From IMG/VR virus record IMGVR_UViG_3300025110_000035, positions 1 to 42,243 of that record: a stretch of DNA of 42,243 nucleotides; one strand, 5' to 3'. Both the position numbers and the translations under genes were made by a program. The notes below the pieces were generated by a model that was not told the DNA's origin, did not search any database, and was given only the letters and a program-made list of their open reading frames with translations. This document shows, one piece after another, positions 3,804-42,243 of this stretch (position 1 is the stretch's first letter; each line of letters opens with the position of its first letter). The DNA comes from a virus.

Positions 3804-3824
3804 TCCTCCTGTTGTATATTTAGA
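3804..3824 (-). promoter_or_regulatory. Strong ribosome-binding site and degenerate late promoter core before gp19
   Basis: The minus strand carries AGGAGGA at 3804-3810, eight bases before the gp19 ATG, and TCTAAATA at 3817-3824. The latter differs from NATAAATA at the second base, like the cores before gp15 and gp13. The ribosome-binding site is firm; the promoter is a weaker call. Confidence 0.5.
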
Positions 3825-12328: not shown

Positions 12329-12336
12329 TATTTAGG
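12329..12336 (-). promoter_or_regulatory. Degenerate late promoter core CCTAAATA before gp15
   Basis: Minus-strand CCTAAATA contains the TAA stop of gp14 and lies about 22 bases before the gp15 ATG. The second base differs from NATAAATA, but the same variant occurs before gp13 and, as TCTAAATA, before gp19. Confidence 0.45.
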
Positions 12337-14645: not shown

Positions 14646-14653
14646 TATTTAGG
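14646..14653 (-). promoter_or_regulatory. Degenerate late promoter core CCTAAATA before gp13
   Basis: It contains the TAA stop of the 134-aa gene and lies 20 bases before the gp13 ATG. It is the same variant as before gp15, so the neck genes can be transcribed apart from the giant genes upstream. Confidence 0.45.
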
Positions 14654-39447: not shown

Positions 39448-39849
39448 TTATCTACTAGATTGCAAAACAAATTGTAATTCTTGTGCTGGAATTTCAATTC
39501 CAATGATTTCATAAACGATAGCTACATCAAAAGCATTATTATCATAGTTAGGAAATGCTTTTACATCAATTAATTGCACTCTTGGTTCATAATTTTCTAT
39601 TGATTCACGTAATTCATCGATAATAATACTCGCAGTAATCTCATCTATGTTCTCAAATAAGGATTGAGTGATTTTAGAACCAAAGGACGGTTGAAAAAAC
39701 TTCTCTCCAGGTGTTGTGAACACTATATTACGAACAGAACGAGCAATTGCATTGGCATTTTTAAGAGCAATAAGGTCTTCATTCAGTGGATTAGACTGAA
39801 ATGTCATACTTATATCCTTAAATCCTTGACTAACCCGTTCTAGAGGCAC
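39448..39849 (-). CDS. 25: Baseplate wedge protein gp25 (133 aa)
   Basis: At 133 aa it is nearly the length of T4 gp25 (132 aa). It shows the GPW/gp25 family core: a LKNANAIARSVRNIVFTTPG block (about 29-48), GEKFFQPSFGS (about 48-58), and the family's EPR motif at residues 88-90 (NYEPRVQLID). Gp25 sits at the bottom of the sheath and links the wedge to the first sheath ring, starting sheath assembly. The start is GTG at 39849-39847 with only a weak ribosome-binding site. An AATAAATA late core lies 22 bases upstream. Confidence 0.97.
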   Translation of the reverse strand: MPLERVSQGFKDISMTFQSNPLNEDLIALKNANAIARSVRNIVFTTPGEKFFQPSFGSKITQSLFENIDEITASIIIDELRESIENYEPRVQLIDVKAFPNYDNNAFDVAIVYEIIGIEIPAQELQFVLQSSR

Positions 39850-39870: not shown

Positions 39871-39878
39871 TATTTATT
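39871..39878 (-). promoter_or_regulatory. Late promoter core AATAAATA before gp25
   Basis: Minus-strand AATAAATA lies about 22 bases before the gp25 GTG, in the gap after the 51-aa gene. It likely drives the gp25-gp6-gp7-like unit. Confidence 0.7.
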
Positions 39879-39890
39879 AAGGATTATAAA

Positions 39891-40046
39891 CTAAAATTCT
39901 GTCAACGTTATCATATCGGATTCATAGTCCAATCCATCCTCCTCAAAATCACCAAAAATCTCACTTTGGACTAGATCATCACGTTTTTTAGGTGTAAGAT
40001 GGTCATTGGATACCTCTCTTAGCATTTTTTTCTTGGAGTTTTCCAT
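39891..40046 (-). CDS. Small acidic protein upstream of gp25 (51 aa)
   Basis: An ATG at 40046 opens a 51-codon frame starting MENSKKKMLREVSNDHLTPK, then KRDDLVQSEIFGDFEEDGLD, ending YESDMITLTEF and TAG. The basic first half and acidic second half look like a real, compact small protein rather than random frame. It fills the space between the terminator at 40075-40102 and gp25. A degenerate late-type core, GTTAAATA, lies at 40066-40073. I do not know a function. The position suggests co-expression with the baseplate genes. Confidence 0.65.
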   Translation of the reverse strand: MENSKKKMLREVSNDHLTPKKRDDLVQSEIFGDFEEDGLDYESDMITLTEF

Positions 40047-40074
40047 AATTTTGGTATGTTTTTACTATTTAACA

Positions 40075-40102
40075 TAAAAAAAGGAGGGACTTAACCCTCC
40101 TT
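40075..40102 (-). terminator. Strong intrinsic terminator, minus strand
   Basis: AAGGAGGG (40095-40102 read on minus) and CCCTCCTT (40081-40088) form a perfect 8-bp, GC-containing stem with a 6-base loop. A run of T follows directly on the minus strand (40075-40080 plus the stem end). It lies three bases after the 47-aa gene stop and separates the cassette upstream from the gp25 unit. Confidence 0.88.
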
Positions 40103-40104
40103 CA

Positions 40105-40248
40105 TTATTTTCCTTGCCCTCGGTATGCTTTCTTTGCCTTATTTCGAGACGTTGCGGATAGTAACGTTCGAGCCGAGCGGCCTTGACGAGTTTTTTTCGG
40201 TCTAGGTCCATTATAGTTCCCATCCTTTACCACAGTTAACATTGGCAT
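40105..40248 (-). CDS. Small basic protein (47 aa)
   Basis: The ATG at 40248 overlaps the stop of the previous gene (TAATG). The 47-aa product reads MPMLTVVKDGNYNGPRPKKT, then RQGRSARTLLSATSRNKAKK, then AYRGQGK. It has 13 Lys/Arg and a single acidic residue, so it would be strongly basic and could bind nucleic acid or ribosomes, but no known motif is present. Its stop is directly followed by the terminator. The coupled start, the codons and the composition support a real gene; the function is unknown. Confidence 0.7.
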   Translation of the reverse strand: MPMLTVVKDGNYNGPRPKKTRQGRSARTLLSATSRNKAKKAYRGQGK

Positions 40249-40403
40249 TACCTAAATTCCCCTATTTTACAAAGTTTAGCATCTACAGATTCGGGTGTTG
40301 CTTTCACCCTGTACTCAACACCATCTCTACGAGATAATTCGGTGAGGATCTCTGCGGAGAGATCCCATAACTCTTCTGTTTTTAGTTGAGTATTCACCGA
40401 CAT
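40248..40403 (-). CDS. Small protein after the glycosyltransferase (51 aa)
   Basis: The open frame reaches up to an ATG at 40481, but that would overlap the glycosyltransferase end by 77 bases. The ATG at 40403 lies one base after the glycosyltransferase stop, with AAGGG upstream, and is the likely start (MSVNTQLKTEELWDLSAEIL). The rest (TELSRRDGVEYRVKATPESV, then DAKLCKIGEFR) has a helix followed by a beta-like part. No known motif; unknown function. It is coupled to both neighbours. Confidence 0.7.
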   Translation of the reverse strand: MSVNTQLKTEELWDLSAEILTELSRRDGVEYRVKATPESVDAKLCKIGEFR

Positions 40404-40404
40404 C

Positions 40405-41172
40405 TTAAATAACCCTTGTCTTTTCATGTCCCACACGTATACGAGGGTCACACCATGTCTCAATACCCATTTCCTTAGCATCTAGGCAGAACGACACGTC
40501 CTCACCACACATATCCTGAACTGCACCTGACTCGAAGACTTGCATCTTAGGAGCAAACCAAGGATATTGCATGTCCTCGAAGACACCCTTCTTAATTAGA
40601 ACCCATCCAAAACCTGTATAATCAACTGTGAAAGGCTTGTTGCGTTTGCCCATTGACTCAACAGTCTCGTGATTCATAACTCCCCCATTCTTACGGAAGT
40701 CTTCCTCTTCTAACCAGTGAGCAACTGAGGTAGTATGTCCGTCCTCTGTAGCATACCAACCTGCTGCGATCTGTCTTTCTTCACCACTCGCAGGTAATGC
40801 TAAATCAGCAAGCTGCCAGAACTTCTCTACATTAAACACAATGTCATTATCAATCCATAGTTGATAATCATATTCTAATTTACCATCCCAAGGCTTTTGT
40901 TCAGCACCACGAAGAACATTTGCTCCAAGACACTTACATCTAGCAAAGTTAACCATAGAAGAGTAATCTTGTGATATCTGAATACTCATTCCAGACTGTA
41001 CCATATCAAAGGACAGTTGAACAAAATTCTTTAAGAATGTATATGAACATCCTCTACCAGGAAGACAGAATACTATTGTCTTCCCTTTCCATCTTTCTTT
41101 GATAGCAGGGATATCCCACTTTGCTTCTTCCTTTGTAGGAGCCTTTGCCTTAACAGTAAATCCTTTTGCCAT
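40405..41172 (-). CDS. GT-A-like glycosyltransferase (255 aa)
   Basis: The protein has a nucleotide-sugar transferase layout. A beta strand starts the fold at about residues 32-38 (KTIVFCLPGRG). There is a DxD-type metal site at D108-N-D110 in QLWIDNDIVF, and a YTGFGWVLIKKGVFE block at about 185-199. An acid-containing GEDVSFCLDAKEMG segment at about 223-236 and a final RVGHEK with H249 complete it. These are the usual GT-A landmarks (DxD, ED near the acceptor, C-terminal His). Length is as expected for a single domain; there is no signal peptide or membrane helix, so it should act in the cytosol. Sugar and acceptor are unknown. A perfect sigma70 promoter lies just upstream, and AAGG precedes the ATG at 41172. 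Confidence 0.75.
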   Translation of the reverse strand: MAKGFTVKAKAPTKEEAKWDIPAIKERWKGKTIVFCLPGRGCSYTFLKNFVQLSFDMVQSGMSIQISQDYSSMVNFARCKCLGANVLRGAEQKPWDGKLEYDYQLWIDNDIVFNVEKFWQLADLALPASGEERQIAAGWYATEDGHTTSVAHWLEEEDFRKNGGVMNHETVESMGKRNKPFTVDYTGFGWVLIKKGVFEDMQYPWFAPKMQVFESGAVQDMCGEDVSFCLDAKEMGIETWCDPRIRVGHEKTRVI

Positions 41173-41195
41173 AACCTTTAGTTACCTTCATTTCA

Positions 41196-41224
41196 ATTAT
41201 ACAGTGTAATTATGTATATGTCAA
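41196..41224 (-). promoter_or_regulatory. Perfect-consensus sigma70 promoter before the glycosyltransferase
   Basis: Minus-strand -35 TTGACA (41219-41224), a 17-base spacer, and -10 TATAAT (41196-41201): both hexamers are exact and spacing is optimal. The start site would be near 41189, giving a leader of about 17 bases before the ATG at 41172. The -35 overlaps the end of the oxygenase gene. Confidence 0.85.
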
Positions 41225-41760
41225 TCAATTAAATGCATATTGAAGGAAACCGAAACACGTTGTGTATCTAATGGATGTGGTTCAACATAGTGTGGAAGAT
41301 CTGATGGAAATATAAGTATCTCTCCTGCCTTTGCGTTTACATATACACCTTCTCCTATATCTAATTCTGGAAATGACATATACAAATTACTTCTACTATG
41401 TTGCATAGGATCTTCAAATACTAATGTGTTATTGTTATCAGTAATATACCATATACCTGATAAGTCACATTTAGGATGTGTATGTCTGAAGTTAAAATCT
41501 CCCTTCTCATTTACATTCAACCACCAGTTAGCCATTCTAACCTTCTTCATGAATGGAAAAGATTCTCGTATGTTATTAATAAAAGGAAGGGGAAGGTATT
41601 CAAAGGTCTGTGCAACACTCTGATACCCTCCCCTATTTGATCTTTGTTTATTATCGTTATCCTCTTTATAATCCATTGCCCACTCGAAGGCACCTCTTGG
41701 TAGTGGAGTATATGCTCTCCATATGGGAGAACCAAACTTCATTACCGTTTCAAGTTTCAA
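41221..41760 (-). CDS. Putative 2OG-Fe(II) oxygenase (179 aa from TTG start)
   Basis: The middle part matches the 2OG-FeII_Oxy_5 / TIGR02466-type family: NWWLNVNEKGDFNFRHTHPK at about residues 78-97, followed by SGIWYI, then AGEILIFPSDLPHYVEPH and QRVSVSFNMHL. Likely metal ligands are H93 or H95 and H157, with R168 for 2-oxoglutarate. The family uses an HxH-P spelling in place of classic HxD, with D99 nearby. Enzymes of this group hydroxylate an unknown substrate; many cyanophages carry relatives. The start is probably TTG (41760-41758), behind AGGAGG with nine bases' spacing; an ATG at 41742 is the alternative (173 aa). It overlaps the upstream gene by four bases. Confidence 0.8.
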   Translation of the reverse strand: MKLETVMKFGSPIWRAYTPLPRGAFEWAMDYKEDNDNKQRSNRGGYQSVAQTFEYLPLPFINNIRESFPFMKKVRMANWWLNVNEKGDFNFRHTHPKCDLSGIWYITDNNNTLVFEDPMQHSRSNLYMSFPELDIGEGVYVNAKAGEILIFPSDLPHYVEPHPLDTQRVSVSFNMHLID

Positions 41761-41996
41761 TATGAATCTCCTCCTGGTGGTTCTGCTGATATTCTGATAG
41801 GGCCTCCCACTCCTACTGTGGGGGCTGCTCTCTCATAACTCAAATCGTCCGACGTATAATCTGTCTTTAGCAACCCTACCATGACATTAAGTAACTCCCA
41901 TGTCTCCTCAAACTCCTCTTGTTTTAAATTATGGTACAAGCACCGATCCTTAGCATATATGTGATACGTTATTATGTTTTCCTTTTCAGACTCCAT
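41757..41996 (-). CDS. Conserved small phage protein (79 aa)
   Basis: This 79-aa protein starts MESEKENIITYHIYAKDRCL, continues YHNLKQEEFEETWELLNVMV and GLLKTDYTSDDLSYE, and ends in a Gly/Pro-rich tail. The YHIYAKDRCLYHNL...EEFxxTWxxLNxMVGLxKTDY pattern resembles a short protein that recurs in marine T4-like genomes, as far as I recall; its function is unknown. The fold looks like a strand followed by a helix. The ATG at 41996 lacks a good ribosome-binding site. The stop overlaps the oxygenase TTG. It is the first well-supported gene after the promoter at 42185-42213. Confidence 0.8.
   Translation of the reverse strand: MESEKENIITYHIYAKDRCLYHNLKQEEFEETWELLNVMVGLLKTDYTSDDLSYERAAPTVGVGGPIRISAEPPGGDSY
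41770..41775 (-). promoter_or_regulatory. AGGAGG ribosome-binding site that selects a TTG start
   Basis: Minus-strand AGGAGG lies nine bases before TTG (41760) but 27 bases before the first ATG (41742). The optimal spacing points to TTG as the oxygenase start. The site is inside the Pro-Gly-Gly codons of the 79-aa gene. Confidence 0.6.
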
Positions 41997-42058
41997 TTTT
42001 TCTGGGGGATTTTTTTATATAGCAAACCTTAGAAGGTCAAAAAAAATTTTCGTGGTTT

Positions 42059-42157
42059 TTATATATACATCTCGAATTCGGTTCGTTGTAGGTTAGGGAC
42101 TTTCACTTTTTTATAAACGGGGCAACGCGACGCAGGGCAATAACAACGAAGGGGCAT
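42059..42157 (-). CDS. Possible 32-aa leader ORF
   Basis: An ATG at 42157 has AAGGA eight bases upstream and lies about 20 bases after the predicted start of transcription. The frame of 32 codons (MPLRCYCPASRCPVYKKVKV, then PNLQRTEFEMYI) is Cys/Pro/basic-rich and ends at TAA 42059. Good initiation signals argue for translation; the short length and odd composition argue against a stable product. It could be a leader peptide. Confidence 0.3.
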   Translation of the reverse strand: MPLRCYCPASRCPVYKKVKVPNLQRTEFEMYI

Positions 42158-42243
42158 AAACCCTGTCCTTAACTGTTATAAACCATCATAACACTGTATG
42201 AGGTTTATGTCAACAACTGTGTAACCACTATGTAACATAAACC
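42156..42243. repeat. Repeated ATAAACC motif and 9-bp inverted repeat around the promoter
   Basis: ATAAACC occurs at 42156-42162, 42178-42184 and 42237-42243, with its complement GGTTTAT at 42202-42208 and a variant (ATAAACG) at 42113-42119. GGTTTATGT (42202-42210) and ACATAAACC (42235-42243) form a perfect inverted repeat with a 24-base spacer that covers the -35 element. Such clustering suggests a binding site for a regulator. Apart from the possible 32-aa ORF, I see no gene in 41997-42243. Confidence 0.5.
42185..42213 (-). promoter_or_regulatory. Sigma70-type promoter at the start of the small-gene cassette
   Basis: Minus-strand -35 TTGACA (42208-42213, exact), 17-base spacer, and -10 TATGAT (42185-42190, five of six). 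It should fire with host polymerase early in infection and read towards the 79-aa, oxygenase and glycosyltransferase genes. The -35 overlaps one arm of a 9-bp inverted repeat. Confidence 0.78.

Follow-up and report, generated by a model that had tools for sequence, protein, structure and literature searches.

The window analyzed here, the 42,243-nt virus record IMGVR_UViG_3300025110_000035 taken whole and with coordinates counted from its first letter, probably contains the last transcription unit of a T4-like cyanophage to be read by host RNA polymerase before the baseplate genes, and this unit is headed by a leader that carries a conserved non-coding element. The window belongs to a T4-like cyanophage, with gp25, gp6 and a long series of structural genes on the minus strand, and its closest records are Marine virus AG-345-E15 and the Synechococcus phages Bellamy and S-SM2. 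All of the features described below lie on the minus strand. An initial annotation of this DNA had proposed two host-type promoters, a terminator and a change to late promoters at this locus; the leader between the first promoter and a 79-aa gene, which is our main point, was missing from it. The promoters, the terminator, the late cores and their conservation are all read from the sequence and its relatives.

Two sigma70-type promoters are predicted, both with the 17-base spacers and at the places that the initial annotation gave. P2 (41196-41224; TTGACA-17-TATAAT), ahead of a putative glycosyltransferase gene, agrees with the consensus at 12 of 12 bases, and P1 (42185-42213; TTGACA-17-TATGAT, with a TG before the -10), ahead of the leader, at 11 of 12. 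A 12/12 site is rare, with 0.025 expected per shuffled window (it appeared in 1 of 40 shuffles). Sites of at least 11/12 are not rare, five being found in the window versus 3.2 expected from shuffles; hence, P1 alone could be due to chance, and conservation decides for both promoters. For P2, 80 loci taken from IMG/VR, from phage records and from the window itself could be scored. In every one of them, the highest-scoring site no more than 120 nt from the start of the glycosyltransferase gene has 10/12 or better; it reaches at least 11/12 in 75 of them and 12/12 in 58, and its position is constant at 22-26 nt before the start codon in all 80. (Two loci, L087 and L088, are second copies of the L025 and L024 contigs and were left out of the locus counts for P2, terminator, late cores, oxygenase slot, spacers and leader.) Control scans at 11/12 or better gave 0/82 before gp25, 0/84 before a 47-aa gene and 7/258 at random places. 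A P2 site of at least 10/12 is present in all 25 upstream regions that are less than 75% alike, and it is retained where the glycosyltransferase protein is only 68% (P-TIM68) or 76% (P-SSM2) identical. Upstream of the leader, a P1 site of at least 11/12 was found in 99 of 250 instances compared with 13 of 249 random stretches. With near-consensus hexamers, spacers within 16-18 bases and conservation before a gene start, both P1 and P2 look like genuine sigma70-type promoters.

P1 is also overlapped by a predicted stem-loop (42202-42243), in which an 8-bp inverted repeat, GGTTTATG (42236-42243) and CATAAACC (42202-42209), surrounds the -35 hexamer; the stem may be longer, because the window ends at 42243. 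Of 13 distinct sequences of the same type, 7 have the repeat in perfect form (the window and 6 of 12 relatives). Among other relatives, 42 of 108 strong P1 sites have their -35 enclosed by a different stem, 6 bp or longer; shuffled flanks gave no such stem, and the stems differ from one another in sequence. In L105, L114, L127 and similar loci there is no clear P1, and short TTATTCGTATTCG-like repeats are found at its place upstream of the leader core. T4-type phages reportedly possess a promoter early stem-loop (PeSL; Arbiol 2010, Comeau 2014). Like a PeSL, P1 combines a sigma70-type promoter with an overlapping stem-loop where genes are shuffled; it differs in that a single site precedes a long conserved leader, the comparison covering this locus. 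A few further stem-enclosed promoters were noticed by eye in the sigma70 scan of Syn9 and S-SM2. The PeSL of T4-type phages is named in PMC4503421.

At the other end of the unit, an intrinsic terminator is predicted (40074-40103; -14.5 kcal/mol), consisting of a GC-rich stem of nine pairs (40103-40080), rather than the eight initially annotated, followed by a T run. The stem begins directly after the 47-aa gene ends with its stop codon. In 60 of 82 loci, the interval from the glycosyltransferase gene to gp25 contains a terminator-like hairpin with a T run, the stem differing from locus to locus. Directly after the T run stands a late-type core, GTTAAATA (40066-40073), 27 nt before a 51-aa gene (39891-40046), and it is kept in 49 of the 49 loci whose late-side 51-aa gene is at least 70% identical. 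A second late core, AATAAATA (39871-39878), precedes the baseplate wedge gene gp25 (39448-39849; identified by profile matches) and is retained in all 82 loci. Since GTTAAATA directly follows the terminator and AATAAATA precedes gp25, the 51-aa gene in between belongs to the late side. Thus, the sharp boundary between two regulatory classes within one strand, as first proposed, is borne out: judged from these motifs it is about ten bases wide, and P2, the gp25 core and GTTAAATA are all conserved with it in relatives.

The late cores in the remainder of the window point the same way, although they are less uniform than the initial annotation had them. ATAAATA occurs nine times on the minus (coding) strand and not once on the plus strand (23 are expected by composition), and for eight of the nine copies a gene start follows at a distance of 26-48 nt. 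All four copies of NCTAAATA are likewise on the coding strand, 27-38 nt before gene starts (14646-14653, 12329-12336, 3817-3824 and 1221-1228). Since both NCTAAATA and GTTAAATA are also located 27-38 nt before starts, the late core must be broader than NATAAATA, and in this phage it seems to be N[ACT]TAAATA. As in the T4 late promoter TATAAATA, a strand-biased TAAATA core lies at a fixed distance before late genes; unlike in T4, the first base is free and the second may be A, C or T.

The leader itself (41997-42184), which is non-coding and about 188 nt long, separates P1 from the 79-aa gene, and aligning relatives revealed conserved blocks within it; the profile of the element matches at 42178-42025 with E 4.7e-27. 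In the window, a core CCCTAACCTACA (42087-42098) is followed by an exchangeable block ACGAACCGAATT (42075-42086) and by CGA (42072-42074), the whole spanning 42072-42098. Across relatives, the constant core CTAACCTACA precedes one of several alternative blocks of about 12 nt. Among 54 loci chosen by their glycosyltransferase gene, each reaching 1,200 nt or more upstream or being the window itself, the element is present upstream in 53, with the exact ten-base core in 48. This is the unbiased frequency; a wider set, in which 245 of 264 sequences match, is biased, many having been fetched by the core itself. The leader instances used for the counts of alleles, structure, first genes and P1 were defined by an exact core match with a nearby A run, and so cannot show how variable the core is. 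A 161-base query from the S-SM2 leader matched 157 of 50,697 phage records, all of them cyanophages by name and each at one place; all 60 among the matches listed fall where no gene is annotated. The element is single copy in Syn9 (around 53,432-53,600) and in S-SM2. Judged by this conservation, the leader element is real.

What follows the leader is not constant. In Syn9, where tblastn found neither the glycosyltransferase nor the 79-aa gene, the element is nevertheless present. The first gene behind it belongs to phrog_707 in Syn9, ACG-2014d, S-RIM4, S-RIM8, S-H35 and S-SSM4, to phrog_661 in P-SSM2, and to phrog_2626 in S-SM2, Bellamy and the window, and 265 leader instances show several unrelated first-gene families. 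Block allele and first gene are associated, AAGGTWCCC occurring with phrog_707 in 13 of 15 cases and AAGTGTTAC with family 3 in 18 of 21, while phrog_2626 as the first gene accompanies at least three block alleles. A 32-aa mini-ORF within the leader (42059-42157) was rejected as a gene, as its peptide is not common to relatives and no mini-ORF is shared among 26 loci; the core-to-CGA spacing, which differs between block alleles by 11-14 nt (by eye), also counts against it. A host origin of the element was rejected as well: an exact 19-mer occurs in five genome-contig stretches, none titled as a cyanobacterium, and three of the five also carry cyanophage genes. In a literature search, with most subscription journals outside its coverage, the papers listed as containing the letters of the core were all unrelated, and no description of the leader was among the matches listed.

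How might such an element act? We favor a cis-acting DNA or RNA site over a gene-specific switch. A riboswitch, or some other structured RNA that regulates the gene following the leader, would suit an element that occupies the 5' leader of an mRNA and whose commonest block allele contains a Shine-Dalgarno-like GAGGTGA. Cyanophages do have such RNAs, namely wcaG, manA, glnA and PhotoRC-II, which PMC9964418 and PMC2864571 describe, and these too are conserved non-coding leaders. Those RNAs are structured, however, whereas RNAalifold found no structure among 149 representatives of the present leader, and mutual information over 149 sequences gave no base-pair covariation, the strongest couplings being between neighbors within the exchangeable block that are not complementary. 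In searches against Rfam, the window gave no more than chance matches below threshold, all of them outside the leader, and 20 short core-bearing loci gave nothing (the Syn9 and S-SM2 leaders were not searched). The family of the gene behind the leader also differs between phages. Because the element persists when the following gene is exchanged and gives no sign of pairing, it is unlike a gene-specific riboswitch, and we consider this explanation unlikely.

The leader could alternatively be an R-loop-type replication origin, at which P1 would make the RNA and the AT-rich leader would unwind. Origins of T4 combine a promoter with an unwinding element, and the leader is single copy, fixed in place, non-coding, rich in AT stretches, 3' of a strong promoter and independent of the gene that follows. 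Against this, cumulative GC skew makes no turn at the leader in either Syn9 or S-SM2, although the direction of transcription would mask one; on balance, an origin of this type is improbable. Slightly better placed, if still doubtful, is a leader that binds a phage factor, either an antiterminator or a regulator, with a specificity that would change with the exchanged block. The constant CTAACCTACA with its alternative blocks, and the association of allele with first-gene family, would fit such a factor; that association may reflect shared ancestry only, and the several alleles found with phrog_2626 speak against such a role. Put more generally, a cis-acting site recognized by some factor of the phage or of the host would fit the leader best, with origin, antitermination and packaging as options. 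We give about an even chance to the fuller proposal that the leader is a so far undescribed single-copy non-coding element across T4-like cyanophages, which stays fixed while the genes behind it change, and whose exchangeable center of about 12 bases makes it a site for a phage factor (in origin function, antitermination or packaging) with clade-specific recognition.

Several observations weigh against a host-polymerase unit with a conserved leader as the general arrangement of this locus. By the rule used, 22 of the 82 loci lack a terminator, mostly those with extra cargo before gp25. P1 is common rather than universal, as the instances scoring at least 11 show. The leader match at the same gap of S-PM2 is weak and degenerate (E 0.055), and in L076 the glycosyltransferase gene is present and the leader was not found. 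Finally, common descent alone, or a gene-specific role, could explain why block allele and first-gene family go together.

The initial annotation regarded the cassette as early, which its promoters do not establish. As an immediate-early module for host takeover, it would be expected to have sigma70-type promoters, as it does, and the small genes around it are of a type expected early; early genes of S-PM2 and Syn9 likewise have sigma70-like motifs, according to the review PMC2984593. On the other hand, sites of the same class, scoring 11-12/12 on the coding strand, precede gp55, DNA polymerase and hli in Syn9 or S-SM2, and psbA in Syn9. In Syn9, host-like promoters reportedly drive the middle genes and a novel element the early ones (Doron 2016). 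In P-HM2, the auxiliary metabolic genes, psbA and hli being among those labelled, are expressed only in the middle cluster (PMC5082946). A further point against immediate-early expression lies within P2: TA[ACG]ATA is embedded in 30 of 36 distinct P2 spacers versus 2.05 in shuffles (largest 6), and a complete late-like HTAAATA core in 7 of the 36. The relatives with HTAAATA between the sigma70 hexamers of P2 are L074, L075, L076, L078, L080, L083 and L005. P2 may hence be a dual promoter, combining host-type and late-type elements, as the same review (PMC2984593) says is thought for middle genes of S-PM2. The late half is uncertain in the window, because the spacer there has TACATA rather than TAAATA. 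We infer that middle expression of the unit is somewhat more likely than early, and an immediate-early takeover role seems rather unlikely.

With regard to gene content, the region is the final part of the gp46-gp25 interval of T4-like cyanophages, which is known as a hot-spot for small genes (Sullivan 2010, PMC3037559). It shares with the hot-spot, as far as that source describes it, the position between early small genes and gp25 and a variable set of small and auxiliary genes, as in S-SM2; the fixed promoter before the glycosyltransferase gene and the conserved leader are features of the present locus. The unit begins with the 79-aa gene (41757-41996; phrog_2626, E 2.3e-14, function not assigned) and continues with a 2-oxoglutarate (2OG)-Fe(II) oxygenase (41221-41760), the glycosyltransferase (40405-41172), a 51-aa gene with no function assigned (40248-40403) and the 47-aa gene (40105-40248; phrog_516), which is widely retained, including in Syn9. 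The five or six coupled genes of the initial annotation are therefore only partly upheld: a short unit exists, but oxygenase and glycosyltransferase are not coupled, because the -35 of P2 overlaps the oxygenase stop codon, and the sixth gene (39891-40046) lies after the terminator.

The oxygenase is supported by matches above cut-off to the PF13759 and TIGR02466 profiles. Residues H93, H95, H157 and R168, which we take to be the metal and 2OG residues, are invariant in 13 sequences, and the predicted structure is good (predicted local distance difference test score, pLDDT, 89.8). The top matches of the oxygenase in the Protein Data Bank (PDB) are 3bvc (best) and 2rg4. The 255-aa protein is more tentatively a glycosyltransferase. 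Its best family is phrog_1574 (function not assigned), it matches the glycosyltransferase family phrog_34859 at E 1.8e-6 only, and it carries the glycosyltransferase name in some records. W-I-D-x-D, G-E-D and H249 are invariant, and the invariant D108-x-D110 within WIDxD is presumably a GT-A glycosyltransferase motif. The profile search gave no Pfam match and no convincing sequence relative in the PDB was found; the model (pLDDT 52) is too poor for a fold search. In Syn9, the 47-aa gene is retained (57834-57929; 7834-7929 in L091) though the glycosyltransferase is lacking.

When the junction is compared across relatives, as was initially suggested, the promoter, terminator and late cores recur and the oxygenase slot varies. 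The slot is vacant in many relatives, and in others it is occupied by other oxygenases or by two or three genes; in L048, L050 and L051, two or three genes share the slot, including additional 2OG-type oxygenases whose identity to that of the window is 25-47%. S-SM2 carries purM, along with other genes, as insertions between the glycosyltransferase gene and gp25. Evidently, the idea of a self-contained module fits the steady glycosyltransferase and 47-aa genes, and not the oxygenase, which is absent or replaced in many relatives.

We propose the following sequence of events. Unmodified host RNA polymerase would start at P1, within the combined promoter and stem-loop, and produce a transcript with a long leader bearing the conserved cis-acting element, followed by the small genes. 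A second start at P2 would serve the glycosyltransferase and 47-aa genes independently of the cargo that fills the oxygenase slot. The host polymerase would then stop at the terminator, and the late machinery of the phage (gp55-type) would start a few bases beyond, at GTTAAATA and AATAAATA.

According to PMC2984593, it is an open question how T4-like cyanophages, which lack MotA, AsiA and Alt, pass from transcription by the host polymerase to that of the late genes. The junction described here is a fixed place in many of these phages at which promoters of both classes lie within about 2 kb, together with a terminator and a conserved element, and the leader element, being short, single copy and provided with natural block alleles, is well suited to testing.

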